From Brachybacterium faecium DSM 4810 (lineage in GTDB: Bacteria > Actinomycetota > Actinomycetes > Actinomycetales > Dermabacteraceae), in assembly GCA_000023405.1 (NCBI GenBank), contig CP001643.1, forward strand, positions 1-64,000: a stretch of 64,000 nt of DNA. The letters run 5' to 3'. Of this stretch, positions 17,974-61,493 are shown piece after piece. Under the pieces are notes generated by a model that had not been told where the DNA came from, did no database searches, and worked only from the letters and a program-made list of their open reading frames with translations. Position 1 is the first letter of the stretch; the number at the start of each line of letters is the position of its first letter. The position numbers and the translations under genes were made by a program.

Positions 17974-17975
17974 GT
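17970..17975 (+). promoter_or_regulatory. -10 box of a leaderless promoter (AraC gene)
   Basis: TATCGT, 6 nt, then ATG at 17982, without a ribosome binding site. Confidence 0.5.
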
Positions 17976-17981
17976 GACCTC

Positions 17982-42796: not shown

Positions 42797-42799
42797 CCC

Positions 42800-44395: not shown

Positions 44396-44402
44396 GGCCG
44401 CG

Positions 44403-46412: not shown

Positions 46413-46906
46413 GCGCGCACCACCCCGACCCCGGCCGGCCCCGCATCGTGCAGCGCGGCCTGTACGCGGACGAGCTGCAGATCGGCGCGATCTACGAGCA
46501 CCGCCCCGGCCGCACCCTCACCGAGGCGGACAACGTCCTGTTCTCCACCATGACCATGAACCCGCAGGCCCTCCACCTCGACGCCGCCTGGAGCGGCACC
46601 ACCGAGTTCGGGCAGCGCCTGGTGAACTCGATGCTCACCCTCGCCACCGTCGTCGGCGCATCCGTCACCCAGCTCAGCCAGGGCACCCTCGTGGCGAACC
46701 TCGGCTTCGGGCAGATCGCCTTCCCGCACCCGCTGCACCACGGCGACACCCTCTACAGCGAGACCGAGGTGACGGGCGTGCGCCCCTCCCGCTCCCGCCC
46801 CGGCCAGGCCGTCGTCTCCCTCGTCCACACCGGGCGCAACCAGCACGGCGACGTCGTCGTGCGCGCCGAGCGCACCACCCTCATGCACTGCCAGGAGCGA
46901 CCATGA
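46409..46906 (+). CDS. MaoC-type hydratase (Rv2499c-like)
   Basis: A 165-residue hot-dog-fold hydratase. The catalytic region reads TLTEADNVLFSTMTMNPQALHLD with the family's Asp and His, and GTLVANLGFGQIAFPHPLHHGDTL follows. In the mycobacterial operon the equivalent gene product hydrates 3-methylglutaconyl-CoA, giving the R isomer of HMG-CoA, in place of the crotonase used in classical leucine breakdown. The same role is inferred here from position and family. Coupled to both neighbours by ATGA overlaps. Confidence 0.85.
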   Translation: MSAHHPDPGRPRIVQRGLYADELQIGAIYEHRPGRTLTEADNVLFSTMTMNPQALHLDAAWSGTTEFGQRLVNSMLTLATVVGASVTQLSQGTLVANLGFGQIAFPHPLHHGDTLYSETEVTGVRPSRSRPGQAVVSLVHTGRNQHGDVVVRAERTTLMHCQERP

Positions 46907-47793
46907 CCACCCACCTCCCGATCGCGCAGGAACCGCTGCCCCTGGGACCGGCGCTGCTGTTCTGCCCCGGCGACCGGCCCGACCGCTTCGCGAAGGCCGC
47001 CGCCCGTGCCGACGCCGTCATCCTCGACCTCGAGGACGCCGTCGCCCCGGACCGCAAGCAGGAGGCGCGCCGCGCCGTCGCCGCCCACGAGCTCGACCCC
47101 GCCCGCACCATCGTGCGCGTCAACGCCCCCGGCACCGCCCAGCTCGCCGCCGACATCGCCGCCCTCGCCCCGCGCCGCCCCCGCTGCGTGATGCTGCCCA
47201 AGGCCACCTGCCCCGCGGACGTGGACCGCCTCGTGGCGCTCCTTCCCGGCGTGAAGGTGCTCGCCCTGTGCGAGACGGCCCGCGGCGTGCTCGCCGCCCC
47301 GCAGCTGGCCGCCCACCCCGACGTGATCGCCCTGATGTGGGGCGGGGAGGACCTCATCGCCTCCCTCGGCGGCACCTCCTCCCGCCGCGCCGACGGCGGC
47401 TACCGCGACGTGGTGCGCCACGCCCGCTCGAGCGTGCTCCTCGCCGCGCGCGCCCACGCCCGCAGCGCCATCGACGCGATCCACACCGAGATCGCCGACG
47501 AGGCCGGGCAGCGCACCGCGGCCGAGGACGCCGCAGCCAGCGGCTTCACCGCCACCGCGTGCATCCACCCCGGCCAGGTCGCCGCGATCCGCGAGGCCTT
47601 CCTCCCCAGCCCTGCCCAGGCCGCCTGGGCGCGCGGCGTGCTCGCCGCCGCGGAGCACCACGGCACCGGGGTCTTCACGCACGAGGGCCGCATGGTCGAC
47701 GCCCCTGTGCTCCGCCACGCCCGCCTGCTGGCCGCCCGCGCCGACGCCGACGCCGACGGCCCCACCGATCCCGGCCCCGGGAACCACTCATGA
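46903..47793 (+). CDS. CitE-like HpcH/HpaI-family CoA-ester lyase (Rv2498c-like)
   Basis: A 296-residue barrel enzyme: LFCPGDRPDRFAKAAARADAVILDLED at the N-terminus (Arg and Asp/Glu for substrate and Mg), IVRVNAPGT, VMLPKATCPADV, LCETARGVLAAPQ and ALMWGGEDLIASLGG, then GFTATACIHPGQV. Mycobacterial Rv2498c cleaves (R)-HMG-CoA and related beta-hydroxyacyl-CoAs to acetyl-CoA plus acetoacetate. The pairing with the MaoC hydratase suggests the same final step of leucine breakdown here. True citrate lyase is unlikely: no CitD/CitF. Confidence 0.87.
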   Translation: MTTHLPIAQEPLPLGPALLFCPGDRPDRFAKAAARADAVILDLEDAVAPDRKQEARRAVAAHELDPARTIVRVNAPGTAQLAADIAALAPRRPRCVMLPKATCPADVDRLVALLPGVKVLALCETARGVLAAPQLAAHPDVIALMWGGEDLIASLGGTSSRRADGGYRDVVRHARSSVLLAARAHARSAIDAIHTEIADEAGQRTAAEDAAASGFTATACIHPGQVAAIREAFLPSPAQAAWARGVLAAAEHHGTGVFTHEGRMVDAPVLRHARLLAARADADADGPTDPGPGNHS

Positions 47794-49046
47794 ACACCAC
47801 CAGCCCGCACCAGGAGCCCTCCGTGACCCGCACCGCGACCAGCCCCGCCCGCTCCACACCCCCGCCCGGCACCGAGCTGCTCAGCGAGGAGCACCAGCGC
47901 CTGGCCGCCCGGGTGCGCGACTTCGCCGACGAGGTCGTCGCCCCCGCCAGCTACACCTACGACACCGAGCGCCGCCTGCCGATGGAGATCCTCGCCGAGA
48001 TGGGGGCGATGGGCCTGTTCGGCCTGCCCCTGCCCCGCACGTACGACGGGCAGGGCCGGGACTACCTCTCCCTGTGCGTCGCCGTCGAGCAGCTGGCCCG
48101 CGTGGACCAGTCGATCGCCGTCACCCTCGAGGCCGGGCTCGGCCTCGGCGCGATGCCGATCCTCACCTTCGGCACCGCCGCGCAGAAGGAACGGCATCTG
48201 CCCGCCCTCGCCCGCGGCGAGCAGCTCGCCGCCTTCGGCCTCACCGAGGCGGAGGCCGGCTCCGACGCCGGCGGCACCCGCACCACGGCCCGCCTCGAGG
48301 ACGGGCAGTGGGTGATCGACGGGACGAAGCAGTTCATCACCAACTCCGGCACCCCCATCACCTCCCTGGTCACCATCACCGCCGTCACCGGGCAGCGGCA
48401 GGGCCGCGACGGGCGCAGCAGCCCGGAGCTGAGCAGCATCATCGTCCCCACCGACACCCCCGGCTTCACCGTCCTGCCCGGCTACGACAAGGTCGGCTGG
48501 CACACCTCGGACACCCACCCGCTGCTGCTCGAGGGCGTGCGCGTGCCCGAGGAGAACCTGCTGGGGGAGCGCGGCCGCGGCTTCGCGAACTTCCTCGCCA
48601 TCCTCGACCAGGGGCGGGTCGCGCTCGCCGCCCTGTGCGTGGGAGCGGCCCAGGGCTGCCTCGAGCAGGCCGTCCGGTACGCGCGGGAGCGGGTGGTGTT
48701 CGGCCGCGCCCTCGGCGAGAACCAGCACATCGCCTTCACCCTCGCCCGCATGCAGGCCCGGGTCGCGAGCGCGCGCGCCCTCATGCACGAGGCGGCGCAC
48801 CGCCTCGACGCCGGGATGCCGTTCAGCCGGGAGGCCTCCCTCGCCAAGCTCGTGGGCAGCGAGGCCGCCGTCGCCAACGCGCGCGACGCCTGCCAGATCT
48901 GGGGAGGCAACGGCTTCCTCAACGAGAACGTCGTGGCCCGCCACTACCGCGACTCGCGCGTGCTCGAGGTGGGGGAGGGGTCCACCGAGGTGCAGCTCGC
49001 GATCATCGCCAAGCATCTCGGGTTCCCGAACGCGCTCACCGGGTGA
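47790..49046 (+). CDS. Acyl-CoA dehydrogenase (isovaleryl-CoA type, FadE19-like)
   Basis: A 418-residue flavoprotein with the acyl-CoA dehydrogenase signatures AFGLTEAEAGSDAGGTRTTA, KQFITNSG, DKVGWHTSDTHPLLLEGVRVP, DQGRVALAALCVGAAQG and RDSRVLEVGEGSTEVQLAII. It follows BCKDH and precedes nothing else in the pathway, so isovaleryl-CoA (and perhaps other branched acyl-CoAs) is the likely substrate. The ATG at 47790 overlaps the lyase stop and gives a 30-residue unstructured start; a GTG at 47823 is possible. Confidence 0.9.
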   Translation: MNTTSPHQEPSVTRTATSPARSTPPPGTELLSEEHQRLAARVRDFADEVVAPASYTYDTERRLPMEILAEMGAMGLFGLPLPRTYDGQGRDYLSLCVAVEQLARVDQSIAVTLEAGLGLGAMPILTFGTAAQKERHLPALARGEQLAAFGLTEAEAGSDAGGTRTTARLEDGQWVIDGTKQFITNSGTPITSLVTITAVTGQRQGRDGRSSPELSSIIVPTDTPGFTVLPGYDKVGWHTSDTHPLLLEGVRVPEENLLGERGRGFANFLAILDQGRVALAALCVGAAQGCLEQAVRYARERVVFGRALGENQHIAFTLARMQARVASARALMHEAAHRLDAGMPFSREASLAKLVGSEAAVANARDACQIWGGNGFLNENVVARHYRDSRVLEVGEGSTEVQLAIIAKHLGFPNALTG

Positions 49047-49088: not shown

Positions 49089-49099
49089 TCCTATAGGGT
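49089..49099 (+). promoter_or_regulatory. TCCTATAGG palindrome over the GntR gene -10 box
   Basis: TCCTATAGGG (49089-49098) overlaps the -10-like TAGGGT (49094-49099), 71 bp before the GntR start. It matches the TCCTATAGGA sites in the C4-sugar island in 9 of 10 bases. Confidence 0.6.
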
Positions 49100-49170
49100 G
49101 GCCAGGGCGAAATCCGGACGCTGGAGCGGGGAGTCCAGGTCCTGCCGCCGGAACAGAGAGGGGTGGCCAG

Positions 49171-49863
49171 ATGGCTGTGCGACGACAGGTCCTGCGCGCC
49201 GAGGTCGAAGAGCTGATCCTCCAGCGGCTGCTCGAGTCCCGCTGGGCGCCCGGCTCCCGGCTCAGCATCGACGGGCTCGCCCGGGACCTCGAGGTCTCCC
49301 CGACCCCCGTGCGCGAGGCGATGGTCTCCCTCGAGCGCTCCGGCCTCGTCGAATACGTGGCGCTGCGCGGCTACGTGGTCGCCCCGCCGCTGGACGCCGA
49401 ACACATGAGCGAGCTGCTCGATGCCCGCAAGGTGGTCGAATCCGCGGCGCTGGGCCGCGCCTTCGAGGACTACGACTCCCTGCTCGCCGATCTCGAGGAG
49501 GCGCATCGCGCGCACGCCGAGGTGCTCGCCCGCATCGACGAGACCGGCCCCGAGGACTACGCCCTGCTGAACGAGCATTTCCGCGCCGACTGGGCGTTCC
49601 ATCAGGTCTTCTTCGCCCACGCGCACAACCGGTACCTGCGCACCATGGTGGAGAACCTCAGCACCTACACCCACCGCATGCGGCAGACGTGGTCCGGCGG
49701 CCCCGCCACCTTCGACGGCCGCACCGCCCACGAGGAGCACGGAGCGATCCTCGAGATGGTGCGCCGCCACCACCACGACGGGGCGCTCGGCGCGCTGTCC
49801 GCCCACCTCGACGGGGTGCTCGCACGGTCGCTCGCCGCGGTCGAGGAGGGCGCCGCGCGATGA
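49171..49863 (+). CDS. GntR-family regulator, FCD (FadR-like) type
   Basis: A 230-residue regulator: winged helix LSIDGLARDLEVSPTPVREAMVSLERSGLV (read in two parts) and an all-helical FCD ligand domain with metal-binding histidines (NEHFRADWAFHQVFFAHAHN; EEHGAILEM). FCD domains sense organic acids or sugar acids. Start at ATG 49171 with GAGAGGGG upstream. The palindrome in its own promoter recurs in the C4-sugar island 5 kb downstream, so that island is its probable target; control of the preceding leucine operon is the alternative. Confidence 0.88.
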   Translation: MAVRRQVLRAEVEELILQRLLESRWAPGSRLSIDGLARDLEVSPTPVREAMVSLERSGLVEYVALRGYVVAPPLDAEHMSELLDARKVVESAALGRAFEDYDSLLADLEEAHRAHAEVLARIDETGPEDYALLNEHFRADWAFHQVFFAHAHNRYLRTMVENLSTYTHRMRQTWSGGPATFDGRTAHEEHGAILEMVRRHHHDGALGALSAHLDGVLARSLAAVEEGAAR

Positions 49864-49917
49864 GACCGCAGGCTCGCCGTCGCCGGTGCCGTCGCTGACG
49901 CTGTCGAACGGCGCCGT

Positions 49918-50865
49918 TCAGCGGTCCAGCAGGGGATCCTCCGCCGAGTCGGTGAAGCGGGTGCGCAGGAACTCCGAGTGCACGTCGAGGGACCGGGTGA
50001 CCCCGGAGACGACGTCGTTCTCGAGCCGGTCCAGCCGGTCCCCGAGCACCACGAGCTGCTCCTCGATGCTGTGCAGGTTCTCGATCGCCCGCGCGCGGGC
50101 CGCCTCCGTGGTGGTGGGGGCGAGGAAGCCGACGGTGTCCTCGAGCGCGTCCACCAGCTCGGGCACGTAGCGATCCGCCATGCCCTCGAGCATCATCACG
50201 TCGGCGTCCGAGGCGCGGCGCGACTGCAGGACGGGCGATCCCAGCAGCGTGTCGATCCGCAGCAGCAGCGTCTCCGCCCGCTGCAGGATCTGCGTCACCG
50301 CCGAGCCGCGGGCGCGCCGCTGCATCCGCTGGATGCGCCGTCGCTGCATACGGGAGTCCTTGACGATCTTCTCGAGCATCGTGCGGGTTCCGGCGGGGAT
50401 CTCGGCGGCTGAGCGGCCCAGCCGCACCGGCTGCGGCCGGCGGTTGCGCAGCAGGTACCCGGTCCCGCCGCCGACGACCGCGGCGACGCCGAGGCCGGCG
50501 AGCAGGGGCGACAGCAGTCCGGCCCCGCCGACGAGGCTGCTCACGCCGAGCACGAGGAAGCTGCTGATCCCGAGCGCCGCGGCGAGCACGGCCGGCACGC
50601 CGACGGTGAGCCAGCGGCCGCGACGGCGCGGCGGCATCATCGCCTTCGAGCGCGGGGAGTGGATCGTGCCCTCGAGAGGGCTGCGGTCCGGCGGCCAGGC
50701 CGTGGGCGGACCCGAACCCCAGCGCGCACCCATACTGCCCGGACCACCCATGCCGCCCGCGCCGCCCATGCGACCCGGGCCACCCATGCCGCCCGCGCCG
50801 GGGCGCGGCGAGGCGTTGCCGCGAGGGGGCGGCTGATGCCTCGGGGGACGGTGCTGAGCATTCAC
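49918..50865 (-). CDS. Membrane protein with Gly/Met-rich repeats, possibly XpaC-like
   Basis: A 315-residue protein (GTG start). The first 80 residues are Pro/Gly/Met/Arg-rich with GGMGGPG-type repeats mirrored in repeated codons at 50730-50800. Two hydrophobic helices follow (VGVPAVLAAALGISSFLVLG; LLAGLGVAAVVGGGTGYLL), then about 180 residues of charged helix (RMQRRRIQRMQRR, ILQRAETLLLRIDTLL, DRYVPELVDALEDTVGFL). The last part resembles the XpaC / 5-bromo-4-chloroindolyl phosphate hydrolysis family in length and pattern, but I am not sure. Function unknown. Confidence 0.7.
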   Translation of the reverse strand: MNAQHRPPRHQPPPRGNASPRPGAGGMGGPGRMGGAGGMGGPGSMGARWGSGPPTAWPPDRSPLEGTIHSPRSKAMMPPRRRGRWLTVGVPAVLAAALGISSFLVLGVSSLVGGAGLLSPLLAGLGVAAVVGGGTGYLLRNRRPQPVRLGRSAAEIPAGTRTMLEKIVKDSRMQRRRIQRMQRRARGSAVTQILQRAETLLLRIDTLLGSPVLQSRRASDADVMMLEGMADRYVPELVDALEDTVGFLAPTTTEAARARAIENLHSIEEQLVVLGDRLDRLENDVVSGVTRSLDVHSEFLRTRFTDSAEDPLLDR

Positions 50866-51075
50866 GGGTGCGCGACCTCTCGGTGGACGGGGCTGAGGTC
50901 AGCGACGGGGAGGAAGCGGCTCCCACAGGCGGGGCGGTCCACGGGATGCGGGACCGGGCGCAGGCCCTCACCATCGTTGGCCTCCAGGCTATCGCGGCCG
51001 TCCGAGGAACGGCTGGGGGCTATCCCCCGAACCTGGCCTCCGGGCAGCGGCCGGGGCGGCTCCCCTTAGGGCGGA

Positions 51076-51567
51076 TCACCTGCTCAGGGCGCGTTCGTGC
51101 AGGTCGCGCAGCTGCTCCGCGAGCGCGGGTTCCGGGCCGGCGACGGGGACGCCCGGCGCGATCGTGGTGATCGGCAGCGGGGCGACCGGGCCCGGCTGCC
51201 GGCCCCATTCCCGCTGCCACGCGCTCAGCTGCGCCGTGCTGCTGGCGTAGACGATCCGGCCCAGACCCACCCAGGCGTGAGCGGCGGCGCACATCGGGCA
51301 GTGCTCGCCCGAGGTGTACACGGTGGCGCGGGCGCGTTCCTGCGGGCTCAGGTGGTTCGCTGCCCAGCGCGCGATCTCGAACTCGGGATGGCGGGTGTGG
51401 TCGCCGCCCTGGACGCGGTTGCGGTCGGCGAAGCGCTCGGTGCCGTCGGCGTCGACGAGGAGCGAGCCGAAGGGCTCGTCCCCGGCGTCGAGGGCCTCCC
51501 GGGCCAGGTCGACGCAGCGGCGCAGGTGGCGACGGTCGGTCTCGGTGAGCTCAGAGCTGGTGTCCAT
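51076..51567 (-). CDS. Nucleoside/cytidine deaminase-like protein
   Basis: A 163-residue zinc deaminase of the CDA fold: zinc His and catalytic Glu in RHPEFEIARWAA (usual motif HAE), zinc cysteines in SGEHCPMCAAAHAWVGL. The family includes guanine deaminases and tRNA deaminases. Substrate is not evident; the HPEFE variant is typical of the nucleoside deaminase group, not TadA (HAEI). The gene stands in the same direction as, but 32 bp upstream of, the TIM-type isomerase stop; the 210 bp before the Gly-rich membrane gene hold nothing recognisable. Confidence 0.83.
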   Translation of the reverse strand: MDTSSELTETDRRHLRRCVDLAREALDAGDEPFGSLLVDADGTERFADRNRVQGGDHTRHPEFEIARWAANHLSPQERARATVYTSGEHCPMCAAAHAWVGLGRIVYASSTAQLSAWQREWGRQPGPVAPLPITTIAPGVPVAGPEPALAEQLRDLHERALSR

Positions 51568-51599
51568 GCGCCCACCACACCACAGGTGCGCCGCCGCCG

Positions 51600-52442
51600 T
51601 CAGCTCGCGGCGTGCTGCTCGGCGATGCTCAGCAGCTCGAGGTAGCCCTCCAGCTGCCATGCGGTGCGGCCCACGAACAGTCCGGTCACGTGCTCGATGC
51701 CGAGCAGGGAGGCGGCGTTGTCGAGATTCACGGAGCCGCCGTAGAGCAGGCCCGTGACCTGGCCGCCGTACTCCGCGCCGAGCGCTGCGAAGGGCTCGGC
51801 GAGCTCCTCGACCGTGGCGGGGCGGCCCTTCTCGCCGATCGCCCAGATCGGCTCGTAGGCGATCACCACGCGGGAGAGCTCCTCGGCGGAGAGCCCGTCG
51901 AGGGCTCCGCGGGCCTGTTCGAGGATGAACTCGCTCGAGCCGCCGGCCTCCTTCACCTCGGCGCTCTCGCCGATGCACAGCAACGGGGTGAGCCCGTGGC
52001 GCAGCGTGGCGGCGACCTTGAGGCGGGTGGTCTCCACCGTCTCGCCGAAGTGCTCGCGCCGCTCGGAGTGCCCGATCTCGACGATCTGGGCGCCGGCGTC
52101 CTTCGCCTGCGGCACCGAGACCTCGCCGGTCCATGCGCCGGCCTCCTCCCAGTGCGCGTTCTGGACGCCCAGCAGCGCGGGGGAGTCCTCGCCGAGGATC
52201 TCCCGCACGGTGGTGGTGGCGGTGAACGAGGGGATCACGAAGGGCTGCACCCTGGTGAAGGGCGTGCCGGTCCCGGCCGTCGGACCGGTCCCGCCGGCCG
52301 TGCCGGCGCTGTCCGCCGTGCCGGTCAGATGGCTGGAGGCGGCGTCGGGGGCGAGGGCTTCACGCAGGCCCTCCGCCCAGGTGCGCGCCTCGGCGAGGGT
52401 CTTGGTCATCTTCCAGCTGGTGCCCACCCACAGGGTGCTCAT
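51600..52442 (-). CDS. Triose-phosphate isomerase-like protein, probable L-erythrulose-1-phosphate isomerase (LerI type)
   Basis: A 280-residue TIM homologue. The active-site Lys is in VGTSWKMTKT (TIM itself has GNWKMN), the His in EIGHSERREHF, the Glu in AYEPIWAIGEKGRPAT, and the phosphate loop in LLYGGSVNLDN. The altered N-terminal motif and the DAK and RpiB neighbours match the LerI set of mycobacterial erythritol and threitol catabolism, which turns L-erythrulose 1-phosphate into D-erythrulose 4-phosphate. A Gly/Thr/Ala-rich insert near residues 35-60 is unusual. Confidence 0.83.
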   Translation of the reverse strand: MSTLWVGTSWKMTKTLAEARTWAEGLREALAPDAASSHLTGTADSAGTAGGTGPTAGTGTPFTRVQPFVIPSFTATTTVREILGEDSPALLGVQNAHWEEAGAWTGEVSVPQAKDAGAQIVEIGHSERREHFGETVETTRLKVAATLRHGLTPLLCIGESAEVKEAGGSSEFILEQARGALDGLSAEELSRVVIAYEPIWAIGEKGRPATVEELAEPFAALGAEYGGQVTGLLYGGSVNLDNAASLLGIEHVTGLFVGRTAWQLEGYLELLSIAEQHAAS

Positions 52443-52482
52443 GTCTCTCCTTGGTCGCGCACAGCGCCACGGCGCGGTGCGG

Positions 52483-52547
52483 AATCGTCAGCTTCCGATC
52501 CAGAACGGCGCCCGGCATGGTGCAGGACCTGACGCTCCTGCGTTGCG
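52483..52547. repeat. Dispersed palindromic repeat, copy 2
   Basis: GTCAGCTTCCGATCCAGAA, a variable middle, then CAGGACCTGACG and a TTGCGG tail. The ends match copy 1 (35284-35350) at 16 of 19 and 12 of 12 positions in the same order and spacing (2-nt difference). It lies in the gap between the RpiB-type and TIM-type genes. Confidence 0.6.
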
Positions 52548-52593
52548 GCGGGGCCGGGCGCCGCCGTGCCCGGCAGCGCCCGGCAGCGTGTGG

Positions 52594-53064
52594 TCAGGCC
52601 TGGTCGAGGGAGCCGTCGTAGGCGCAGATGGCGTCGACCTTCGCGGCCGAGGAGGACTCCGGATCGAACTCCAGGTCCAGCCACACCTTCACCAGCTCCT
52701 TCGCGGACTCGAGGCCGATCACGCGCTGGCCCATGCACAGCACCTGCGCGTTGTTCGAGAGCACGGAGCGCTGCACGGAGTAGAGATCGTGCGCGGTCAC
52801 GGCGCGGACGCCGGAGACCTTGTTCGCCGCGATCGCGACGCCCAGTCCCGTGCCGCAGATCAGCAGGGCGCGATCCGCCTCGCCCGCGGCGATCTTCTCC
52901 GCCGCGGCGACCGCGACGTTGGGGTAGTAGGTGCCGTCGTCCGCGGAGCCCACGCCCACGTCGACGACCGACTCGACGCGGTCGTCCGCCTCGAACAGGG
53001 CCTTGAGCTCTTCCTTGTGGCCGTAGCCGGCGTTGTCGCCGCCGACGATGATCTTCAGTGCCAT
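52594..53064 (-). CDS. RpiB/LacAB-type sugar-phosphate isomerase, probable D-erythrulose-4-phosphate isomerase (EryI type)
   Basis: A 156-residue RpiB-family isomerase: IIVGGDNAGYGHKEELK at the N-terminus (family GDHAG), the active-site loop ALLICGTGLGVAIAANK with Cys and Thr, and SNNAQVLCMGQRVIG. In the erythritol pathway an RpiB homologue makes D-erythrose 4-phosphate. Here it stands between the DAK kinase and the TIM homologue in one leftward operon, the same trio. A ribose-5-phosphate isomerase role is the alternative. GAAGGAGAG precedes the ATG. Confidence 0.86.
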   Translation of the reverse strand: MALKIIVGGDNAGYGHKEELKALFEADDRVESVVDVGVGSADDGTYYPNVAVAAAEKIAAGEADRALLICGTGLGVAIAANKVSGVRAVTAHDLYSVQRSVLSNNAQVLCMGQRVIGLESAKELVKVWLDLEFDPESSSAAKVDAICAYDGSLDQA

Positions 53065-53156
53065 GGGACTCTCCTTCACGAGACGTTCTTTGAGGGTCGC
53101 AGGCCGGTCGCCTGCGGGGAAGGGGGCGCGGGAGTCCGGTCCCGCACACCCTGGGG

Positions 53157-54872
53157 TCAGGACAGGTGCTGCCCGAGCTCCTTCATGAGGATCGAGAAGG
53201 AGATCGCGCCGGGATCGGGGGTGCCGATCGACTTCTCCCCGAGCACGCGGGAGCGGCCCAGGGTCGCGGTGATGTCCGCGGTGGCGTCGGCCGCCTCGCG
53301 GGCGACCTGCGCGGCCTGCAGGATCGCGGCCGCGGCGTCGTCCCCGGTGAACGCCGCATCCAGCGCCTCCCGGAAGGGTGCGGCGGCGTCGACCATGGTC
53401 TTGTCGCCCACCTGCGCACCGCCCAGGCGCTGGACGGCGTCGATGCCGGCGTCGACCGCGTCGACCACGGTGCGGGGCTCGGCACCGGCCTGGTCGTCGA
53501 ACACGCTGCCGGCCGCGATCAGCGCCGCGCCCCACAGCGCACCGGAGGTGCCGCCGGCCGATTCGGACCATGCCTCGCCGGCACGGACCAGCAGGGTGCG
53601 CGCCCCGGCGCCGGCCTCGAGAGCCTCCCGCGCCGCGGCCGCAGCGCCCTTCGAGCCGTAGGCCATGCCCTGGCCGTGGTCGCCGTCGCCGGCGATCGCA
53701 TCGATCCGGCCGAGCTCGGCCTCCTCCCGCGCGCACACGCTCTCGAAGAGTTCCAGCACGCCGGCGACCTTCGCCGCCGCGGCACGGGACTCCTCGCTCG
53801 AGGCGGGCGTCTCATCGGCCCCCGCCTCCCAGAAGGAGGTGCGACGGGGCCGGTCCACCGGCGGCATCGCGCCGCGGTGGAAGGCCGGGGTGTCCACCGG
53901 CGCGAGCCAGTGCTGCTCGAGCTCCTCGTCGAGGAACACCAGGGTCAGGGAGAGCCCGGACATGTCCAGGCTGGTGACGAGCTCGCCCACCTCGGGCCGC
54001 ACCGGCGTGATCCCCGCCTGCTCGAGCAGCTCGGCGACCTTCGCATAGACGACGAACAGCTCCTCGTACTTCACCGTGCCGAGACCGTTGACGAGCACCG
54101 CGGCGCGGCCCTGGTAGCCGCCCTCGGCGCGCTCCGGCTGCTCGGCCAGAACGCCCTCGACCAGCATCGCCGCGATGTCATCCGCCGTGCCGATCGGCTC
54201 CTCGCGCACCCCGGGCTCGCCGTGGATGCCCAGGCCCACGCCCATCTGCCCGTCCGGGACATGGAACAGGGCGTCCTCCGCACCGGGGAGCGTGGGGCCG
54301 TCGAAGGCGACGCCGAAGGAGCGGGTGGCGTCGTTGGCCTTCCAGGCGAGGCGCTCGGCCTCGTCGAGATCCGCGCCCGCCTCGATCGCGGCGCCGGCGA
54401 TCTTGAACACCGGCAGGTCGCCGGCGATGCCGCGGCGGTCGCGATGGTTCTCGGGGGAGTTGGAGACGATGTCGTCGCTGACCTTGATGATCCGCACGTC
54501 CACGCCCTCGGCGCGCAGCTTCTCCGCCGCGGCGCCGAAGTGCAGCACGTCCCCGGCATAGTTGCCGAAGCCCAGCACCACGCCGCCGCCGTTCTCCGCG
54601 TTGCGGGCGACGGAGTAGACCTGCGAGGCCGACGGCGAGGAGAAGATGTTGCCGCAGGGGGCGCCGTGCCCCATGCCCGGGCCCACCCAGCCCGCGAAGG
54701 CGGGGTAGTGGCCGGAGCCGCCGCCGATCACCAGGGCCGGCTGGCCCTTCGGGGTCTCGGTCGCGCGGACCACGCCGCCGTGGACGACGGCGACGTGCTC
54801 GGGATGGGACAGGGCGAGCCCCGCGACCGCCTCGGTCGCGAAATCTGCCGGGTCGTTGAAGAGGTACGTCAT
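53157..54872 (-). CDS. Two-domain DAK-type kinase, probable L-erythrulose kinase (LerK type)
   Basis: A 571-residue fusion of DhaK and DhaL domains. The DhaK part (1-330) has GGGSGHYPAFAGWVGPGM and the covalent-binding His in NYAGDVLHFGAAAEKL. The DhaL part (from about 365) has the nucleotide/Mg motif DAIAGDGDHGQGM and GGTSGALWGAAL. It uses ATP, since no PTS DhaM is present. The setting with TIM and RpiB homologues points to L-erythrulose rather than dihydroxyacetone as substrate. GGAGGAAACC precedes the ATG and a TCCTATAGGA site lies 80 bp upstream. Confidence 0.88.
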   Translation of the reverse strand: MTYLFNDPADFATEAVAGLALSHPEHVAVVHGGVVRATETPKGQPALVIGGGSGHYPAFAGWVGPGMGHGAPCGNIFSSPSASQVYSVARNAENGGGVVLGFGNYAGDVLHFGAAAEKLRAEGVDVRIIKVSDDIVSNSPENHRDRRGIAGDLPVFKIAGAAIEAGADLDEAERLAWKANDATRSFGVAFDGPTLPGAEDALFHVPDGQMGVGLGIHGEPGVREEPIGTADDIAAMLVEGVLAEQPERAEGGYQGRAAVLVNGLGTVKYEELFVVYAKVAELLEQAGITPVRPEVGELVTSLDMSGLSLTLVFLDEELEQHWLAPVDTPAFHRGAMPPVDRPRRTSFWEAGADETPASSEESRAAAAKVAGVLELFESVCAREEAELGRIDAIAGDGDHGQGMAYGSKGAAAAAREALEAGAGARTLLVRAGEAWSESAGGTSGALWGAALIAAGSVFDDQAGAEPRTVVDAVDAGIDAVQRLGGAQVGDKTMVDAAAPFREALDAAFTGDDAAAAILQAAQVAREAADATADITATLGRSRVLGEKSIGTPDPGAISFSILMKELGQHLS

Positions 54873-55334
54873 CGTTGGTTTCCTCCGAAGGCTGCCGAGG
54901 GATCGACGGCGAGGGTCATGGAGGCAGCGAGGGGACGCTGCCCACCCGTAATCCTATAGGAAAAATGGCGAGCGGTCAGGACCGCCGTCGGCTCCGGCAT
55001 CCGGCCTGCTCAGCGTGCGATCTTCTTCGCACCGCAGCACGAGTGCACCCCTGCGCGTCCTGGACGCGATGGTCGATGAGGACGGCCCGGTGCGCGCACC
55101 TTTCCGGCACGGAGCGCAGAGGATTGGCGGTGCGGAGCGTGAGCCTTCGGGCCGCCGTGCATCACCGCGGGGATATCGTGGAGCAGGAGATGCAGGCAGG
55201 CGCGGGTGCCCTGTGATGCCGACCCGTCATGCCGGGCAGCGGGAGTGGAGAGCAGCTGCCGCACCACCCCAGATGCCATCGCCCCTCGAGAACGCCACCG
55301 TCGGCGCCAGCGGCGCCGGCGGCGAAAGGAAAGC
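54873..55334. promoter_or_regulatory. Divergent control region of the C4-sugar island
   Basis: A 462-bp stretch between the leftward kinase operon and the rightward DUF1593 gene. It holds the palindrome TCCTATAGGA (54952-54961) which overlaps a minus-strand -10-like TAGGAT. I find no gene; the ORFs through it have no ribosome binding site or family character. The promoter of the DUF1593 gene is not obvious. Confidence 0.6.
54952..54961 (-). promoter_or_regulatory. TCCTATAGGA operator of the kinase operon
   Basis: A perfect 10-bp palindrome followed by an A-tract; on the minus strand it includes the -10-like TAGGAT. One of four related sites in the window. Confidence 0.65.
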
Positions 55335-56777
55335 ATGACGACGCACACCGGCCCGAGGACAGTGGTCACCACCGATCCGGAGCTCGACGACCTCAACTCG
55401 ATGCTGCGGCTGCTGCTGTACAGCAACGAGATCGACCTGCGGGGGCTGGTGTACTCCTCCAGCCAGTTCCACGTCGCAGGGGATCCCGAGCGGGGCATCG
55501 CACCGCACCGCTGGCCGGCGCCGGGGGAGAGGCTGCACATCGACCGGGCGGTGGACGCCTACGAGCAGGTGCACCCCCACCTCGTCGTGCACGATCCGGA
55601 CTATCCGAGCCCCGAGCACCTGCGGGGCCTCATCGCCTGGGGGAACGTCGCCGCCGTCGGCGACATGGAGGCGGACACCCCGGGCTCGGACCTCATCCGC
55701 TCGGTGCTGCTCGAGGACGAGCCCGGCCAGGTGTTCCTCCAGACCTGGGGCGGGCCCAACACCATCGCCCGCGCCCTGCGCTCGATCCAGCTCGAGTTCG
55801 AGGGCACCCCCGGCTGGGAGGAGCTGCACGCACGGATCTCCCGCACCGCGGTGATCACGAGCTTCGGCCAGCAGGACAGCACCTTCGACGAGTACATCAG
55901 GCCGCACTGGCCGGATCTCGAGCACCGCGAGGTCGCCACGCGGGTGTGGGGCTACTTCGCGCGGGACGTCGTCGCGGAGGAGGATCAGGAGCTGCTCGGC
56001 CCCCGGTGGATGCGGGAGAACGTCTCGCAGGTCGGCGCGCTCGGCCGCGCCTACCAGGTGTGGGGCGACGGGCAGCAGATGGCCGAGGGCTTCGATGCCG
56101 AGGACTACTTCGGGCTCAGCGGGCTGAGCGTCGCCGAGCTCGAGGAGCGGGGGTACCGGGTCTGGACACCCCCGCAGCCGGAGGGCGCATGGATCTCCGA
56201 GGGCGACTCCTCGAACTTCGCGCTGCTCATCGCCAACGGGCTGCGCAGCTGGGAGCACCCCGGATGGGGCGGATGGGGCGGGCGGCAGGGCTCCGTCGAC
56301 GGCGATCCCGCCTCCTGGTCGAACCACGCCACCATCGATCGCGGTCCCGACGGCCGCCCCCGGCCGGACTGGGCGGCGGCGCGCTGGTTCCGGCACATCC
56401 AGCACGATCTCGCCGCTCGCCTGCAGTGGACGGTGCAGCCCACCTACGACGCGGCGAACCACGCACCACACGTGCGCGTGCTGGAGGGCACCGACCTGAC
56501 CCGTCTCGCAGGGTCCACGATCACGCTCACCGCGGAGGTGAGCGATCCCGACGGGGACGAGGTGACCGTGCGCTGGTGGCAGTACCGCGAGGCGGGCACG
56601 TCGCCGTTGGCCGTCGAGGTGCGCGCTGCCGGGCCGCGCTGCGAGGTCGAGCTGCCGGCGGAGGCCGAGCCCGGCACCACGGTGCACCTCATCGTGGAGG
56701 CCACGGATTCCGGGACGCCCGCCCTCACGAGCTACCAGAGGGTGGTCGTCGAGATCGCTGCGGCAGAAGAGGGCTGA
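55335..56777 (+). CDS. DUF1593 (nucleoside-hydrolase-like) protein with C-terminal beta domain
   Basis: A 480-residue protein. The N-terminal 330 residues are DUF1593, a nucleoside-hydrolase-like fold: the acidic metal site is in VVTTDPELDDLNSMLRLLLY, and WGGPNTIARAL and NFALLIANGLRSWEHPGWGGWGGR are family features. The last 100 residues form an Ig-like domain (ITLTAEVSDPDGDEVTVRWWQY). No signal peptide is seen, so it should act in the cytoplasm. It probably cleaves a glycosidic bond; the substrate is unknown. GAAAGGAAAG precedes the ATG. Its place among C4-sugar genes is unusual. Confidence 0.85.
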   Translation: MTTHTGPRTVVTTDPELDDLNSMLRLLLYSNEIDLRGLVYSSSQFHVAGDPERGIAPHRWPAPGERLHIDRAVDAYEQVHPHLVVHDPDYPSPEHLRGLIAWGNVAAVGDMEADTPGSDLIRSVLLEDEPGQVFLQTWGGPNTIARALRSIQLEFEGTPGWEELHARISRTAVITSFGQQDSTFDEYIRPHWPDLEHREVATRVWGYFARDVVAEEDQELLGPRWMRENVSQVGALGRAYQVWGDGQQMAEGFDAEDYFGLSGLSVAELEERGYRVWTPPQPEGAWISEGDSSNFALLIANGLRSWEHPGWGGWGGRQGSVDGDPASWSNHATIDRGPDGRPRPDWAAARWFRHIQHDLAARLQWTVQPTYDAANHAPHVRVLEGTDLTRLAGSTITLTAEVSDPDGDEVTVRWWQYREAGTSPLAVEVRAAGPRCEVELPAEAEPGTTVHLIVEATDSGTPALTSYQRVVVEIAAAEEG

Positions 56778-56811
56778 CCGAGCCCCCTCGAACCTCTCTC
56801 CGCGCAGCGGA

Positions 56812-56869
56812 AACGCCGCTCGGTGCCGTGACGCTCATGACGAGCGTCGGGACGGCACCGGGCGGCGTT
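56812..56869 (+). terminator. Large hairpin terminator after the DUF1593 gene
   Basis: AACGCCGC, CGGTGCCGT and GACGCTC on the left pair with GAGCGTC, ACGGCACCG and GCGGCGTT on the right, with small internal bulges and a short loop. Confidence 0.7.
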
Positions 56870-56921
56870 CGTCGTGCCGGGACCGCGCGGAGAGCGGGTA
56901 GGCTTTCTCTCTCACTGCTTT

Positions 56922-56932
56922 TCCTATAGGAT
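56922..56932 (+). promoter_or_regulatory. TCCTATAGGA operator of the isomerase/SDR genes
   Basis: TCCTATAGGA (56922-56931) overlaps TAGGAT (56927-56932), a -10-like box, 33 bp before the ATG at 56965. Confidence 0.65.
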
Positions 56933-56964
56933 ATTGCTGACGGAGACCCCACGAAAGGACAACG

Positions 56965-57894
56965 ATGTTCACCGCAGAGAACTGGCCCATCGGCGCCAAC
57001 ATGCTCTCGTTCGGCAGCACCACCTCGGACGGCACGCCCACCCTCGAGGCCCCCTCGACCGTGTGGGCCTCCCAGCTGCGCCAGGTCAAGGAGCTCGGCG
57101 TGGACCAGATCGACCCCACCGACGCCTGGCTGCCGCTCGCGAAGCTGAGCGACGAGCGCGTCGAGGAGTTCCGCCGCGTGCTCGACGGCGAGGGCATGAC
57201 GCTCTCCTCGATCTCCATGACCCGCAACTCCGTGGTCGATGTCGAGCACGGCGAGGAGAACCTCGCCGATGCGCTGCGCTTCATCGAGCTCGCGCCGAGC
57301 TTCGGTGTGAGCGTGGTGAACACGGGCTTCATGCAGGCCCTCACCGAGAAGCAGGCGAAGGCGATCTGGTTCTGGCTCGAGGACGGCCATGTCGACGACC
57401 CGGCGCTGCGCGATCTCGCGATCGAGCGCACCCGCCGGCTCGGCGACGCCGCGAAGGCCCAGGGCATCCAGCTGAGCCTCGAGATGTACGAGGACACCTA
57501 CGTCGGCACCGCCGACGAGGCCGTCTCCTTCGTGACGGACGTGGACCACGAGGCCGTGGGCCTCAACCCGGACATCGGCAACCTGGTGCGCCTGCACCGC
57601 GAGGTCGAGCCCTGGCCGGACATGTTCGAGAAGGTGCTGCCGCACTCGAACTTCTGGCACATCAAGAACTACACCCGCGACTACGACCCGGCCACCGGCG
57701 CGTACTCGAGCGCCCCGATGCCGCTGAAGTACGGCTACATCAACTACCGCAGCGTGATCCGCCGCGCGCTCGAGCTGGGCTACACCGGCCCGTTCTGCTG
57801 CGAGCACTACGGCTCCGACTCCCTCGGCGTGATCGCCGAGAACGTGCACTACATCCGCCAGGTGCTCGCCTCCGCGCTGGCGGAGTCCGCCTGA
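56965..57894 (+). CDS. Sugar phosphate isomerase/epimerase-like TIM barrel
   Basis: A 309-residue xylose-isomerase-like (AP endonuclease 2 family) barrel. Metal-binding residues are suggested by LSLEMYEDTYVG, AVGLNPDIGNLVRLH, FWHIKNYTRDY and GPFCCEHYGSDSLGV. The start resembles NWPIGANMLSFGSTTSDG with no close known enzyme that I recognise. Members interconvert keto and aldo sugars or epimers. AAAGGACAACG precedes the ATG and the SDR gene follows after 26 bp. Substrate unknown; OtnI-type 2-oxotetronate isomerase is one candidate because of the downstream DUF1537 kinase. Confidence 0.82.
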   Translation: MFTAENWPIGANMLSFGSTTSDGTPTLEAPSTVWASQLRQVKELGVDQIDPTDAWLPLAKLSDERVEEFRRVLDGEGMTLSSISMTRNSVVDVEHGEENLADALRFIELAPSFGVSVVNTGFMQALTEKQAKAIWFWLEDGHVDDPALRDLAIERTRRLGDAAKAQGIQLSLEMYEDTYVGTADEAVSFVTDVDHEAVGLNPDIGNLVRLHREVEPWPDMFEKVLPHSNFWHIKNYTRDYDPATGAYSSAPMPLKYGYINYRSVIRRALELGYTGPFCCEHYGSDSLGVIAENVHYIRQVLASALAESA

Positions 57895-57920
57895 TCCCCG
57901 TCCCGTTCGAAGGAGAACCC

Positions 57921-58724
57921 ATGAGCATCGAGAACCGGACCATCCAGCCCTTCCCCGCCCGCCGCACCGCGGTCGTCACCGGCGCGGGCGCGCCCCGCGG
58001 GATCGGCCGACGGGTGGTGTGCACGCTGCTCGCCCGGGGCTGGAGCGTCGCCGCGGCCGACATCGACGGCCCCGCCGTCGAGCAGTTCGCGCAGGAGCTC
58101 TCCGCCGAGCTGCCCGCCGGCTCGGACCAGCAGGTCCTCGGCGTCGGCGTGGACATCAGCGACCAGGCCTCCGTGGACGCCGCCTTCGCCCGGATCGACG
58201 CCGAGCTGCCGCAGCTGGTGGCGCTGGTGAACCTCGCCGGCATCCCCAGCCCGCACCCGTTCCTCGAGATCACCGCGGAGATCTGGGACCGCGTCATGGA
58301 CGTCAACGGCAAGGGCACCCTGCTGATGATGCAGGCCGCGGCCCGGCGGATGATCGACGGCGGTGTGGGCGGGCGGATCGTCAACACCTCCTCGATCACC
58401 GCCCTCGACGGCGGCGGCACCTTCTCCAAGACCGGCTACGCCGCGGCGAAGGCCGCCGTGCAGGGTCTCACCCGCGGCGCCGCCCGGGAGCTCGGCGAGC
58501 ACGGGATCACCGCGAACGTCATCCTGCCGGGCCCGATCGACACCGACATCATGGGCGGCACCCTCACCGAGGACCGCAAGGAGTCGATGTCCGCGAACAT
58601 CCCGCTGGGCCGCGTCGGTCAGCCCGAGGAGGTCGCCGGCCTGATCGCCTTCCTGGTCGGCGAGGACTCGAGCTTCGTCAGCGGGACCTCGATCAGCGTC
58701 GACGGCGGCAAGCACATGCACTGA
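57921..58724 (+). CDS. Short-chain dehydrogenase/reductase
   Basis: A 267-residue classical SDR: TGAGAPRGIGRRVV cofactor loop, Asp in AAADIDGPA (NAD preference), LVNLAGIPSP, NTSSITAL and the catalytic YAAAKAAVQ, with a C-terminal SGTSISVDGGKHMH. The gene is preceded by AAGGAGAACCC and coupled to the TIM-barrel gene. In this setting a sugar, polyol or sugar-acid dehydrogenase is likely. Confidence 0.9.
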   Translation: MSIENRTIQPFPARRTAVVTGAGAPRGIGRRVVCTLLARGWSVAAADIDGPAVEQFAQELSAELPAGSDQQVLGVGVDISDQASVDAAFARIDAELPQLVALVNLAGIPSPHPFLEITAEIWDRVMDVNGKGTLLMMQAAARRMIDGGVGGRIVNTSSITALDGGGTFSKTGYAAAKAAVQGLTRGAARELGEHGITANVILPGPIDTDIMGGTLTEDRKESMSANIPLGRVGQPEEVAGLIAFLVGEDSSFVSGTSISVDGGKHMH

Positions 58725-58807
58725 GCATCCCCGAGGCCCGGTCCGCGACGACTGCAACGGTCCGCGATCACCGCTCCGGCGTGGCCCGGACCACCCCCTA
58801 GCCAATA

Positions 58808-58818
58808 TCCAATAGGAT
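58808..58818 (+). promoter_or_regulatory. TCCAATAGGA operator variant
   Basis: TCCAATAGGA (58808-58817) overlaps TAGGAT (58813-58818); the gene at 58922 starts 104 bp downstream. Flanks AATATCC and TAGGATCACTATT are AT-rich against the local background. Differs from the perfect site at one base. Confidence 0.55.
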
Positions 58819-58921: not shown

Positions 58922-59893
58922 ATGACCATCTCCACCGTGACCATCGTCGGCGCCGGCTACATGGGCGGCGGCATCGCCCAGGTCCTCGCCATCGCCGGCT
59001 TCGACGTGACCATCGCCGACGTCAGCGTCGAGAACGCGAACGCCTCCCTCGAGCGTCTCCGCAAGGAGGCGCAGGACTTCGAGGACCAGGGCCTGTACAG
59101 CCCCGGCGCCGCCGAGCTCGTCGCGAAGAACATCTCCGCCGGCAAGTCCATCGAGGACGCCGTCGCCGATGTCGACTTCATCGAGGAGGCCGTCTTCGAG
59201 CGCCTCGACGTCAAGCGCGACGTGCTCGCGACCATCTCCGAGCACGCCCGCCCGGACGCCATCATCGGCACCAACACCTCGACCATCCCGGTCAAGGAGC
59301 TGGTCAGCGCGGTGAAGCACCCCGAGCGCTTCCTCACCGTGCACTTCTCCAACCCCGCCCCGTTCATCCCCGGCGTCGAGCTCGTGGCCGGCGAGGCGAC
59401 CACCCCCGAGACCGTCACCGCGGTCAAGGAGCTGCTGGAGAAGTCCGGCAACCAGGGCGCCCAGGTCGCCGACACCCCCGGCATGGTGCTCAACCGCCTC
59501 CAGTACGCGCTGCTGAAGGAGGCCACCTCGATCGTCGAGGAGGGCGTCGCCACCGCCGAGGACGTCGACACCATCGTCCGCACCACCTTCGGCTTCCGCC
59601 TGGGCTTCTTCGGGCCCTTCGCGATCGCCGACCAGGCGGGCCTGGACGTCTACGCGAACTGCTTCGTGACCTTCGAGGACGCCTTCGGCGACCGCCTGGC
59701 CACCCCGCAGATCCTCACCGACTCCGTCGCCGAGGACCGCAAGGGCGTCAAGAACGGCAAGGGGCTGCTGGGCGACTACGACGAGGCCACCGCGGCGGAG
59801 CTCATCGCCTACCGCAACAAGGCCTACGCCAAGATGTCCCAGCTCCTGGCCGAGCTCGGCCCGGCCCCGAAGCCCACGCCGAAGAACTCCTGA
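58922..59893 (+). CDS. 3-hydroxyacyl-CoA dehydrogenase-family protein, probable sugar-acid dehydrogenase
   Basis: A 323-residue NAD-dependent enzyme with Rossmann loop VGAGYMGGGIAQV, NTSTIPVKEL, the catalytic His in TVHFSNPAPFIPGVELV, and the C-terminal 3HCDH domain (TPGMVLNRLQYALLKEA; FFGPFAIADQAGLDVY). The family also holds L-gulonate 3-dehydrogenase and carnitine dehydrogenase. No thiolase or hydratase is near, and its promoter shares the sugar-island operator, so a hydroxy-acid substrate from sugar breakdown is more likely than an acyl-CoA. AAGGAG precedes the ATG. Confidence 0.82.
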   Translation: MTISTVTIVGAGYMGGGIAQVLAIAGFDVTIADVSVENANASLERLRKEAQDFEDQGLYSPGAAELVAKNISAGKSIEDAVADVDFIEEAVFERLDVKRDVLATISEHARPDAIIGTNTSTIPVKELVSAVKHPERFLTVHFSNPAPFIPGVELVAGEATTPETVTAVKELLEKSGNQGAQVADTPGMVLNRLQYALLKEATSIVEEGVATAEDVDTIVRTTFGFRLGFFGPFAIADQAGLDVYANCFVTFEDAFGDRLATPQILTDSVAEDRKGVKNGKGLLGDYDEATAAELIAYRNKAYAKMSQLLAELGPAPKPTPKNS

Positions 59894-60092: not shown

Positions 60093-61493
60093 GTGGAAGA
60101 ACTCGTCCTCGCGGACCGGCCGGTCTGGCTGCTGCTGACGATCGCGGTCGTCGGCATCGCCGCCCTGCTCGTCCTCATCATCAAGGCGCGGCTGCACGCC
60201 TTCTTCTCCCTGCTGATCGTCGCCGTCGCCACCGGGCTGGCCGCCGGGATCGGAGTCGGCGATGTCATCGACGTCGTGATCGACGGCTTCAGCACCACCG
60301 TCGGCACCGTCGCGCTGCTGGTCGGATTCGGTGCCGTGCTGGGCCGATTGGTCGAGATCACCGGCGGCGCACAGGTGCTCGCCGACAAGATGCTCGACGC
60401 CTTCGGGGAGAAGCGGGCACCGCTCGCCCTCTCCGTCGCCTCGCTGTTCTACGCCTTCCCGATCTTCCTGGACGCCGGCTTCATCGTGATGCTGCCGGTG
60501 ATCTACACCGTGGCCCGGCGCCTCGGCGGCTCGTTCATGCTCTACGTGCTGCCCTCGATCGCGTCGTTCATGATGATGCACGCCCTGCTCCCGCCCCACC
60601 CCGGCCCTACCGCCGCCGCCACCGTGATGGGCGCCGACGTGGGCCTCGTGGTGCTCGTCGGCCTGCTCATCGGCCTGCCCACCTGGTACTTCGGCGGCTA
60701 CCTGGTGGCCCGTGCCATCTCCAAGCGGTTCCCGGACACCCCGGTGCCGGCACTGCTCGGCGAGCCGCGCGAGGTCCCCGTGGAGGAGCGCCCCTCCTTC
60801 GGCGGCATCCTCCTGGTGCTGCTGCTGCCCCTCGTGCTGATCTTCTTCAACACCGCCTTCTCCACCCTGGAGGCGCAGGGCACCGTCTCCGAGGACAACC
60901 TCGGCTTCCAGCTCTCGCGCCTGATCGGTGCGACGCCGGTGGCGCTCGCGCTCTCCGCCCTCCTCGCGATGCTGGTGCTGTACGTGGTGCCGCGCCGCCG
61001 CCGCGGCCAGAAGGTCGGCGGCCTGCTCGAGGAGCTGGTGGACGACGCCCTCGCACCGGTCTGCTCGATCATCCTCATCACCGGTGCGGGCGGCGCCTTC
61101 GGCCGCGTGCTCACCGAGACCGGGATCGGCGGCGAGGTCGCCCAGGGGCTCGACGCGATGGGCCTGCCGCTCATCGTCGCCGCGTACCTGGTCACCATGG
61201 CGATGCGCATCGCGCAGGGCTCCGCCACCGTCGCCGCCACCACCGGCGCCTCGATCATGGCCCCGGCGATCATGGCCGGCGACTTCAGCTCCGTCGCCGT
61301 CGCCGCGATGGTGATCGCGATCGGTGCCGCCTCGATCGGCTGGTCGCACGTCAACGACTCCGGCTTCTGGCTGATCGGCAAGTTCTGCGGCTTCGACACC
61401 GTCACCACGTTCAAGACCTGGTCGCTCGTGGGCACCACCATCTCGCTGCTGGGCTTCGCCCTCTCGGCGGTGGTGTTCGTGATCGCCGCCTGA
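60093..61493 (+). CDS. GntP-family gluconate-type permease
   Basis: A 466-residue membrane protein with about twelve hydrophobic segments. GntP hallmarks include LLVGFGAVLGRLVEITGGAQ, FYAFPIFLDAGFIVMLPVIY, HALLPPHPGPTAAATVMGAD, LITGAGGAFGRVLTETGIG and AIGAASIGWSHVNDSGFWL. These carriers bring gluconate and related sugar acids in with protons. Start is GTG behind CTGGAGACC. Next to an acid-sugar kinase and dehydrogenase, it probably imports a C4 sugar acid. Confidence 0.93.
   Translation: MEELVLADRPVWLLLTIAVVGIAALLVLIIKARLHAFFSLLIVAVATGLAAGIGVGDVIDVVIDGFSTTVGTVALLVGFGAVLGRLVEITGGAQVLADKMLDAFGEKRAPLALSVASLFYAFPIFLDAGFIVMLPVIYTVARRLGGSFMLYVLPSIASFMMMHALLPPHPGPTAAATVMGADVGLVVLVGLLIGLPTWYFGGYLVARAISKRFPDTPVPALLGEPREVPVEERPSFGGILLVLLLPLVLIFFNTAFSTLEAQGTVSEDNLGFQLSRLIGATPVALALSALLAMLVLYVVPRRRRGQKVGGLLEELVDDALAPVCSIILITGAGGAFGRVLTETGIGGEVAQGLDAMGLPLIVAAYLVTMAMRIAQGSATVAATTGASIMAPAIMAGDFSSVAVAAMVIAIGAASIGWSHVNDSGFWLIGKFCGFDTVTTFKTWSLVGTTISLLGFALSAVVFVIAA

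Follow-up and report, generated by a model that had tools for sequence, protein, structure and literature searches.

The first 64,000 nucleotides of contig CP001643.1 of Brachybacterium faecium DSM 4810 (forward strand; referred to below as the window) carry a gene island in which the palindrome (A/T)TCCTATAGGA(T/A) probably serves as the operator of an FCD-type GntR regulator encoded at 49171. At four promoters, the GntR dimer would cover the -10-like box (TAGGAT) and repress the units behind them, i.e., gntR itself, an operon for a kinase, an RpiB-type isomerase and a TIM-fold isomerase (TIM), a pair of TIM-barrel and SDR genes, and an operon for an HCDH-like dehydrogenase, a GntP permease, a second kinase and a further dehydrogenase. 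The link between regulator and operator, repression included, is given a probability of about 0.85, with binding and repression both deduced from sequence. The proposed regulon is well supported as an inference; it would be new, of a type already known, and its operator is unusual. Its four sites in the window are the following.

49089 to 49098, plus strand: operator 1, TCCTATAGGG, an imperfect copy before gntR.
54952 to 54961, minus strand: operator 2, TCCTATAGGA, an exact copy before the kinase operon.
56922 to 56931, plus strand: operator 3, TCCTATAGGA, an exact copy before the TIM-barrel/SDR pair.
58808 to 58817, plus strand: operator 4, TCCAATAGGA, an imperfect copy before the HCDH operon.

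All four words were found where a preliminary description of this DNA had located them, although the span it gave runs one base beyond the last site (58818 instead of 58817). They also lie between genes, as it had claimed, provided that the GntR starts at the ATG at 49171; an alternative in-frame GTG occurs at 49075, and orthologues align from about the 49171 start. Four such sites compare with 0.14 expected in 64 kb, and none of 100 shuffles reached this number. The entire genome, a single contig of 3,614,992 bp, matches TCCTATAGGA with one mismatch or none at seven places, four of which are these sites within a stretch of about 10 kb, and the only two exact copies genome-wide both belong to the island. 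A binomial estimate for finding four of the seven places in one such stretch is 7e-7, with all stretches allowed for. The reversed pattern occurs at 91 places at the same tolerance, so that words resembling TCCTATAGGA are rare in this genome and seemingly scarce outside the regulon. The remaining three places lie inside open reading frames (ORFs; 1309612 and 2903841) or outside them (574753), with the ORFs chosen by codon composition. The genome-wide scan argues against a motif equally common inside genes. With a matrix built from 74 unique site sequences, the window's four among them, the four sites score 16.2 to 26.1, each higher in the direction of its own gene, and nothing else in the window exceeds 10.4.

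Among 38 genomes of the genus, the exact motif is present in 28, as is a GntR matched at E below 1e-60 in an equal number; motif and orthologue occur together in 27 and are both absent from nine, with two discordant genomes (Fisher 6e-7, the genomes not being independent). One of these (G031), a fragmented assembly, has the exact motif and only 40%-identical GntR homologues, and the other (G032) has the GntR, with only one-mismatch sites in the part that was read. For 29 genomes of the genus, the window included, genes were mapped by tblastn with the window proteins and not by annotation; the acyl-CoA dehydrogenase and deaminase queries had guessed coordinates and contain stops, so that their labels serve as landmarks only. 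By our own count, 52 of the 57 exact genus sites precede the kinase gene, the TIM-barrel gene or a GntR copy. In three genomes (G003, G030 and G031) the kinase gene adjoins the TIM-barrel gene in divergent orientation, with 38 bp between their two sites, and the Sde182-like gene of the window therefore sits in what is elsewhere one divergent promoter region. Another genome (G024) carries two copies of the regulator (L091:6721-7386 and 17457-18143; 71% and 72% identical to that of the window), each with a site just upstream.

The sites are specific for promoters. They were counted at no more than one mismatch within 250 bp upstream of genes in 40 genus loci and in 80 loci of named genomes, the latter being the best 80 of more than 500 from a GntR-profile scan. 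In the genus, a site precedes 22 of 23 kinase genes (21 exact), all 27 TIM-barrel genes (all exact), 16 of 18 HCDH genes (none exact, TCCAATAGGA in 12 of the 16) and 21 of 28 GntR genes (1 exact), where TCCTATAGGG and TCCTATGGGA are the commonest forms with seven each of the 21. The perfect operator is thus found at 48 of 50 kinase and TIM-barrel promoters versus 1 of 46 GntR and HCDH promoters, in genomes that are not independent. Operon-internal genes rarely follow a site (RpiB 2/21, TIM 1/27, SDR 0/36, GntP 0/12, acid-sugar kinase 0/9, last dehydrogenase 0/8), nor does the membrane protein gene beside GntR (0/1). With 29 rearranged palindromes as controls for the same regions, the mean count per gene class was 0.00 to 0.21 and the maximum six, and no match was exact. 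The named loci resemble this picture, with sites before 42 of 58 kinase, 55 of 67 TIM-barrel, 24 of 76 GntR and 6 of 42 HCDH genes, next to RpiB 0/52, TIM 2/23, SDR 1/39, GntP 0/5, acid-sugar kinase 1/12 and last dehydrogenase 0/14 (controls: means 0.00 to 0.31, maximum 6). The low GntR and HCDH counts there are explained by the frequent location of both genes inside the two operons. Eleven of the 80 named loci belong to Brachybacterium or Dermabacter (L130-L137, L139, L143, L209); these were excluded from the outside-genus counts of site forms and promoters and included in the 80-locus, upstream-site and residue counts. Outside the genus, in a set that also holds eight loci from the order, some repeating named loci, the sites found are exact at 6 of 21 GntR, 30 of 38 kinase and 44 of 56 TIM-barrel genes. 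A chance origin of the four sites was rejected on the basis of the whole-genome count and the control palindromes.

Conservation in relatives, which the preliminary description had made a test of its proposal, was observed in the genus and beyond it. Eight GntR loci (46-52% identity) were read from the order outside the family; all eight have a site with at most one mismatch, and in seven a kinase or TIM-barrel gene is present. A site is found in 75 of the 80 named loci (56 exact), and one of the two genes likewise in 75; 72 have both, three a site without these genes, three the genes without a site, and two neither. Microbacterium, Agrococcus and others have the genes arranged as site-kinase-RpiB-TIM-GntR and site-TIM barrel-HCDH-SDR, which places the regulator inside an operon under its own proposed control; the order in Brachybacterium seems to result from a rearrangement. 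In addition, the TIM-barrel protein was compared with 394 genomes for a class-wide set, resulting in 18 matches at E<=1e-60, three of which had been seen before (G000, G019, G277) and the other 15 of which were read. A site with at most one mismatch was present in all ten loci with the GntR (30-49% identity) nearby and in none of the five without it, three of which (G464, G058, G624) carry a GntR-family gene of another kind. The weakest four of these GntRs (30-37%) are regarded as orthologues by similarity and place; three have the Asp/Pro pair described below, and the fourth is not covered at those positions.

The protein itself offers a further connection to the operator. According to the available part of Suvorova et al. 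(2015, PMC4494728), the FadR subfamily has the consensus TKGT/ACMA, and Arg at position 28 of the helix-turn-helix (HTH) goes with G, while Asp was concluded to go with C; Table 1 of that source gives position 27 as FadR Glu-34, hence 28 is Arg-35. The window GntR carries Asp34 at this position in an ungapped alignment to TM0439, the residue there being Arg, and other FCD structures have different residues at the place of Asp34; the step from TM0439 to FadR in this numbering is taken by us as given. Counting by the published numbering, we assign the correlation to the K of TKGT, a position taken by C in TCCT. Asp at position 28 matches the published Asp-C preference, as far as can be judged from aligned sequences. 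The operator core TCCT/AGGA has no GT/AC pair, unlike the rule of the subfamily. Operators without GT/AC are also known from published exceptions such as NanR and BioR. In 123 orthologue rows (at least 39% identity and at least 80 bits), position 28 is Asp in 120 and Glu in three, and the Arg45-like position is Pro in 121. Two of the three Glu loci have a site and one (L140) has none. Among 14 weaker GntR matches left out of the rows, five also show Asp/Pro and nine do not. The best NCBIfam matches of the regulator (PhnR, NanR, CsiR) remain far below their cut-offs.

Concerning the mode of action, a -10-like box, TAGGAT at operators 2 to 4 and TAGGGT at operator 1, faces the downstream gene in all four cases, in agreement with the preliminary description. 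With the T that follows the core in the direction of the gene, the sequence reads TAGG(A/G)T at 73 of 87 sites in the genus and 94 of 115 elsewhere, compared with 29 and 47 for the mirror pattern. As the operator overlies the -10-like box, its occupation would therefore be expected to repress. The main proposal of the preliminary description, one operator common to gntR, the kinase/isomerase operon, the TIM-barrel/SDR pair and the HCDH operon, is strongly supported by co-occurrence, promoter-specific conservation, the negative control and the residue-base match. Repression is suggested by the overlap with the -10 box and by known FCD repressors. Autoregulation is indicated more weakly than the shared operator, given the mostly inexact sites of the genus GntR genes. 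DgoR of E. coli (PMC7674646) and HypR of Streptomyces coelicolor (PMC6608401) are both described as repressors of the FCD type, and HypR also represses itself. The proteins share the GntR winged HTH, the FCD domain and metal-type Asp/His residues with the window regulator, as well as an operator near or over the promoter and the control, predicted in our case, of a catabolic operon.

Several observations weigh against this interpretation. No -35 element was seen at genus or other sites, and 7 of the 28 genus GntR genes lack a site within 250 bp. Five of the 80 named loci have no site (L140, L153, L164, L170, L193), and in three of these a TIM-barrel gene is present; altered operators were sought there with the matrix, and nothing convincing was found before GntR. 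L140 has two weaker matches (16.5 and 16.0) about 1.5 kb before the TIM-barrel gene, and L153 a partial match. Furthermore, an exact copy of the 10-mer is present in 77 of the 396 genomes searched in the order, compared with 27 of the 396 that have the GntR at E<=1e-45, and outside the genus an exact copy was counted by us, among the matches listed, in 5 of 9 genomes with the GntR and 54 of 360 without it. Some of the latter kind (G051, G069, G082, G085) possess a weaker GntR homologue beside the genes. Since the 10-mer is unspecific across the order, a lone copy is weak evidence, and place and company of the sites carry the case. Finally, 5 of the 57 exact genus sites are located elsewhere, between DHDPS- and ROK-domain genes (G008), at a similar place (G023) or near MFS genes (G025, G036, G005). 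Two of the MFS neighbours, 81% identical to each other, lie directly beside exact operators, in G005 (L074; site 15578, ORF 14135-15562) and in G025 (L093; site 6239, ORF 6313-7680). This pair is likely a further regulon member in two genomes, as judged from site and gene position, and the sole such candidate among the five.

It was also considered that the sites are read by another regulator, e.g., the second FCD GntR of the genome (C1:69612-70301) or its relatives of about 33% identity near the TIM-barrel gene. Such a relative was mapped in 15 genus loci, in four of which it has a site within 250 bp upstream, all exact; in the named loci, one of five relatives has a site. The four genus sites, however, are shared with the neighbouring TIM-barrel gene. 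Sites persist where no relative was mapped beside that gene (the window, G003, G013, G030 and G033). Moreover, the motif-bearing genomes G019, G026 (a fragmented assembly), G030 and G033 gave no match to the second GntR at E<=1e-20, but orthologues of at least 63% occur in the motif-free genomes G006, G011, G016, G022, G035 and G037. The occurrence of the second GntR in the genus does not parallel that of the motif, and it was rejected as reader of the sites by this phyletic pattern, which leaves a role for another regulator very improbable. The second GntR gene (L008:6710-7402 in the mapped stretch) lies beyond the window, near genes for an aldo/keto-reductase, an FAA-hydrolase and an amidohydrolase. 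In L070, L072, L075, L077, L088, L092 and others, an extra GntP-like permease and a second-GntR relative of about 33% identity stand between the kinase and TIM-barrel genes.

Hardly more credible is a special sigma-factor promoter element or an activator site, with the GntR merely travelling with the genes. The orientation of TAGG(A/G)T toward the gene at most sites would be compatible with a promoter element, but the core is palindromic almost throughout, as expected for the site of a dimer, and the word is absent from the five class-wide loci that have the same enzymes without this GntR, as opposed to its presence in ten of ten with it. The overlap with the -10-like box likewise suits repression better than activation. 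Repression by the GntR encoded at 49171 is the preferred explanation of the four sites.

The island comprises the genes below, as assigned by family search.

49171 to 49863, plus strand: GntR/FCD regulator of 230 aa (PF00392, 46.5 bits, cut-off 27; PF07729, 65.6 bits, cut-off 24.3).
51600 to 52442, minus strand: TIM-fold isomerase, third in the kinase operon (PF00121; triose-phosphate isomerase model NF000722, 371.5 versus 293).
52594 to 53064, minus strand: RpiB-type isomerase (PF02502; TIGR02133 RPI_actino, 199.3 versus 168.2).
53157 to 54872, minus strand: Dak1-Dak2 kinase of the dihydroxyacetone/erythrulose-kinase type, first in the operon (PF02733, PF02734).
55335 to 56777, between operators 2 and 3: Sde182/nucleoside-hydrolase-like gene.
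56965 to 57894, plus strand: AP_endonuc_2 (xylose-isomerase-like) TIM barrel (PF01261).
57921 to 58724, plus strand: SDR dehydrogenase (PF13561).
58922 to 59893, plus strand: 3HCDH-fold (HCDH-like) dehydrogenase (PF02737, PF00725).
60093 to 61493, plus strand: GntP-family permease (PF02447; TIGR00791, 348.2 versus 292.75).
61583 to 62950, plus strand: four-carbon-acid-sugar-kinase-like protein, SBD_N/NBD_C (PF07005, PF17042).
63085 to 63969, plus strand (L008:186-1070): 3-hydroxyisobutyrate-type NAD-binding dehydrogenase, last in the operon (PF03446, PF14833).

Upstream of the island, at 39289-49046, a gene run judged by eye resembles branched-chain keto acid or leucine degradation. The only solved relative of the TIM barrel at E<=0.001 is 5tnv_A (517 bits), named only as AP endonuclease family 2. 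The island TIM passes the TpiA model; since the genome carries a second TIM gene (C1:1715326-1715967, 40% identical), it need not be the glycolytic enzyme.

A route from a C5 sugar acid is suggested by the combination of GntP, the 3HCDH-fold dehydrogenase, the xylose-isomerase-like TIM barrel, the erythrulose-type kinase and the two isomerases. The acid imported by GntP would be oxidised at C3 and decarboxylated to erythrulose, which would be phosphorylated by the Dak-type kinase and isomerised to erythrose 4-phosphate. The D-apionate pathway proceeds likewise by C3 oxidation, loss of CO2 to erythrulose, phosphorylation and isomerisation. A C5 acid as substrate, with the TIM barrel as predicted decarboxylase, is favoured over a C4 acid, albeit tentatively. 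The repressor would leave the operators on binding a carboxylate, most likely a sugar acid, through the metal of its FCD pocket. In FCD regulators of acid catabolism, a metal is bound by Asp/His residues (PMC7674646, PMC6608401). The corresponding Asp140, His144, His190 and His212 of the window regulator are kept wherever aligned, with Asp-His-His-His in 113 of the 123 orthologue rows and only partial alignment of the region in the other ten; this retention favours a carboxylate inducer.

The same regulon might alternatively serve a C4 sugar acid of the threonate/erythronate type as substrate and inducer, which is regarded as rather unlikely. The GntP permease, the acid-sugar kinase and the last dehydrogenase form one operon in the window, a feature shared with D-threonate/erythronate pathways as regards an acid-sugar kinase and a 3-hydroxyisobutyrate-type dehydrogenase joined to GntP. 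These pathways use DtnK/OtnK, PdxA2, OtnC and OtnI. TIM-barrel relatives in Paracoccus and Sinorhizobium, at alphaproteobacterial loci (L210, L211), adjoin another GntR, PdxA and a tricarboxylate transporter, and the Paracoccus locus also has a Dak kinase, a gene annotated as 3-oxo-tetronate kinase and an aldolase. Unlike in those pathways, the acid-sugar kinase does not reach the D-threonate kinase model NF047819 (75.2 versus a cut-off of 450), no PdxA was recognised among the window genes tested, and neither was an OtnC-type aldolase, for which no targeted search was made. Moreover, Dak kinase, RpiB, TIM, TIM barrel and HCDH make up the most widespread gene set, and only a minority of loci show the acid kinase and the last dehydrogenase. 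A C5 acid suits the conserved genes no less well than a C4 acid.

The proposed C5 route in turn shares the Dak-type kinase, the TIM- and RpiB-type isomerases (here in one operon) and the TIM barrel with its solved relative 5tnv with the L-erythrulose branch of tetritol and D-apionate catabolism. This branch was reportedly described by Huang in 2015 (cited in PMC12780249) and Carter in 2018 (cited in PMC6302742). The difference is that no island enzyme reaches an erythrulose- or apionate-specific family cut-off: the RpiB homologue scores 149.4 versus 240 for the D-erythrulose-4-phosphate isomerase model NF051858 and reaches RPI_actino instead, and the 3HCDH-fold dehydrogenase reaches no NCBIfam equivalog cut-off. 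The available portions of PMC12780249 and PMC6302742 name no regulator of this kind for L-erythrulose or D-apionate catabolism. Literature searches returned no work on a bacterial regulator for TCCTATAGGA, as judged by title (RegPrecise was outside the scope), one match for CCTATAGG with GntR, on devA-like genes, and none for apiose with GntR or for apionate with erythrulose. In comparison with the FadR/FCD subfamily, as given in the available part of PMC4494728, the window operator TCCTATAGGA lacks the GT/AC pair, and its regulator has Asp instead of Arg at HTH position 28.

Taken further, the lineage of this regulator could represent a natural specificity switch in the FCD-GntR family, with Arg28 changed to Asp, the Arg45-like residue to Pro and the operator from TKGT/ACMA to TCCT/AGGA. 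Across the Actinomycetes, it might control an unassigned regulon for the conversion of a C5 sugar acid, be it D-apionate or a different pentonate, via erythrulose into erythrose 4-phosphate, using graded operators that are perfect at the kinase and TIM-barrel promoters and degenerate at the regulator and the HCDH/permease operon. This extended proposal is put forward as a conjecture somewhat short of even odds.

Should the inducer be identified, the acid-responsive repressor and its rare operator would provide a usable sensor. Besides, the GntR recognition code could be tested cleanly here, since residue and base pair depart together from the subfamily norm and swapping either would probe the Asp-C prediction. 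For the many actinobacterial genera in which the island recurs, a regulator, an operator and a gene set would be at hand, allowing these genes to be annotated jointly.

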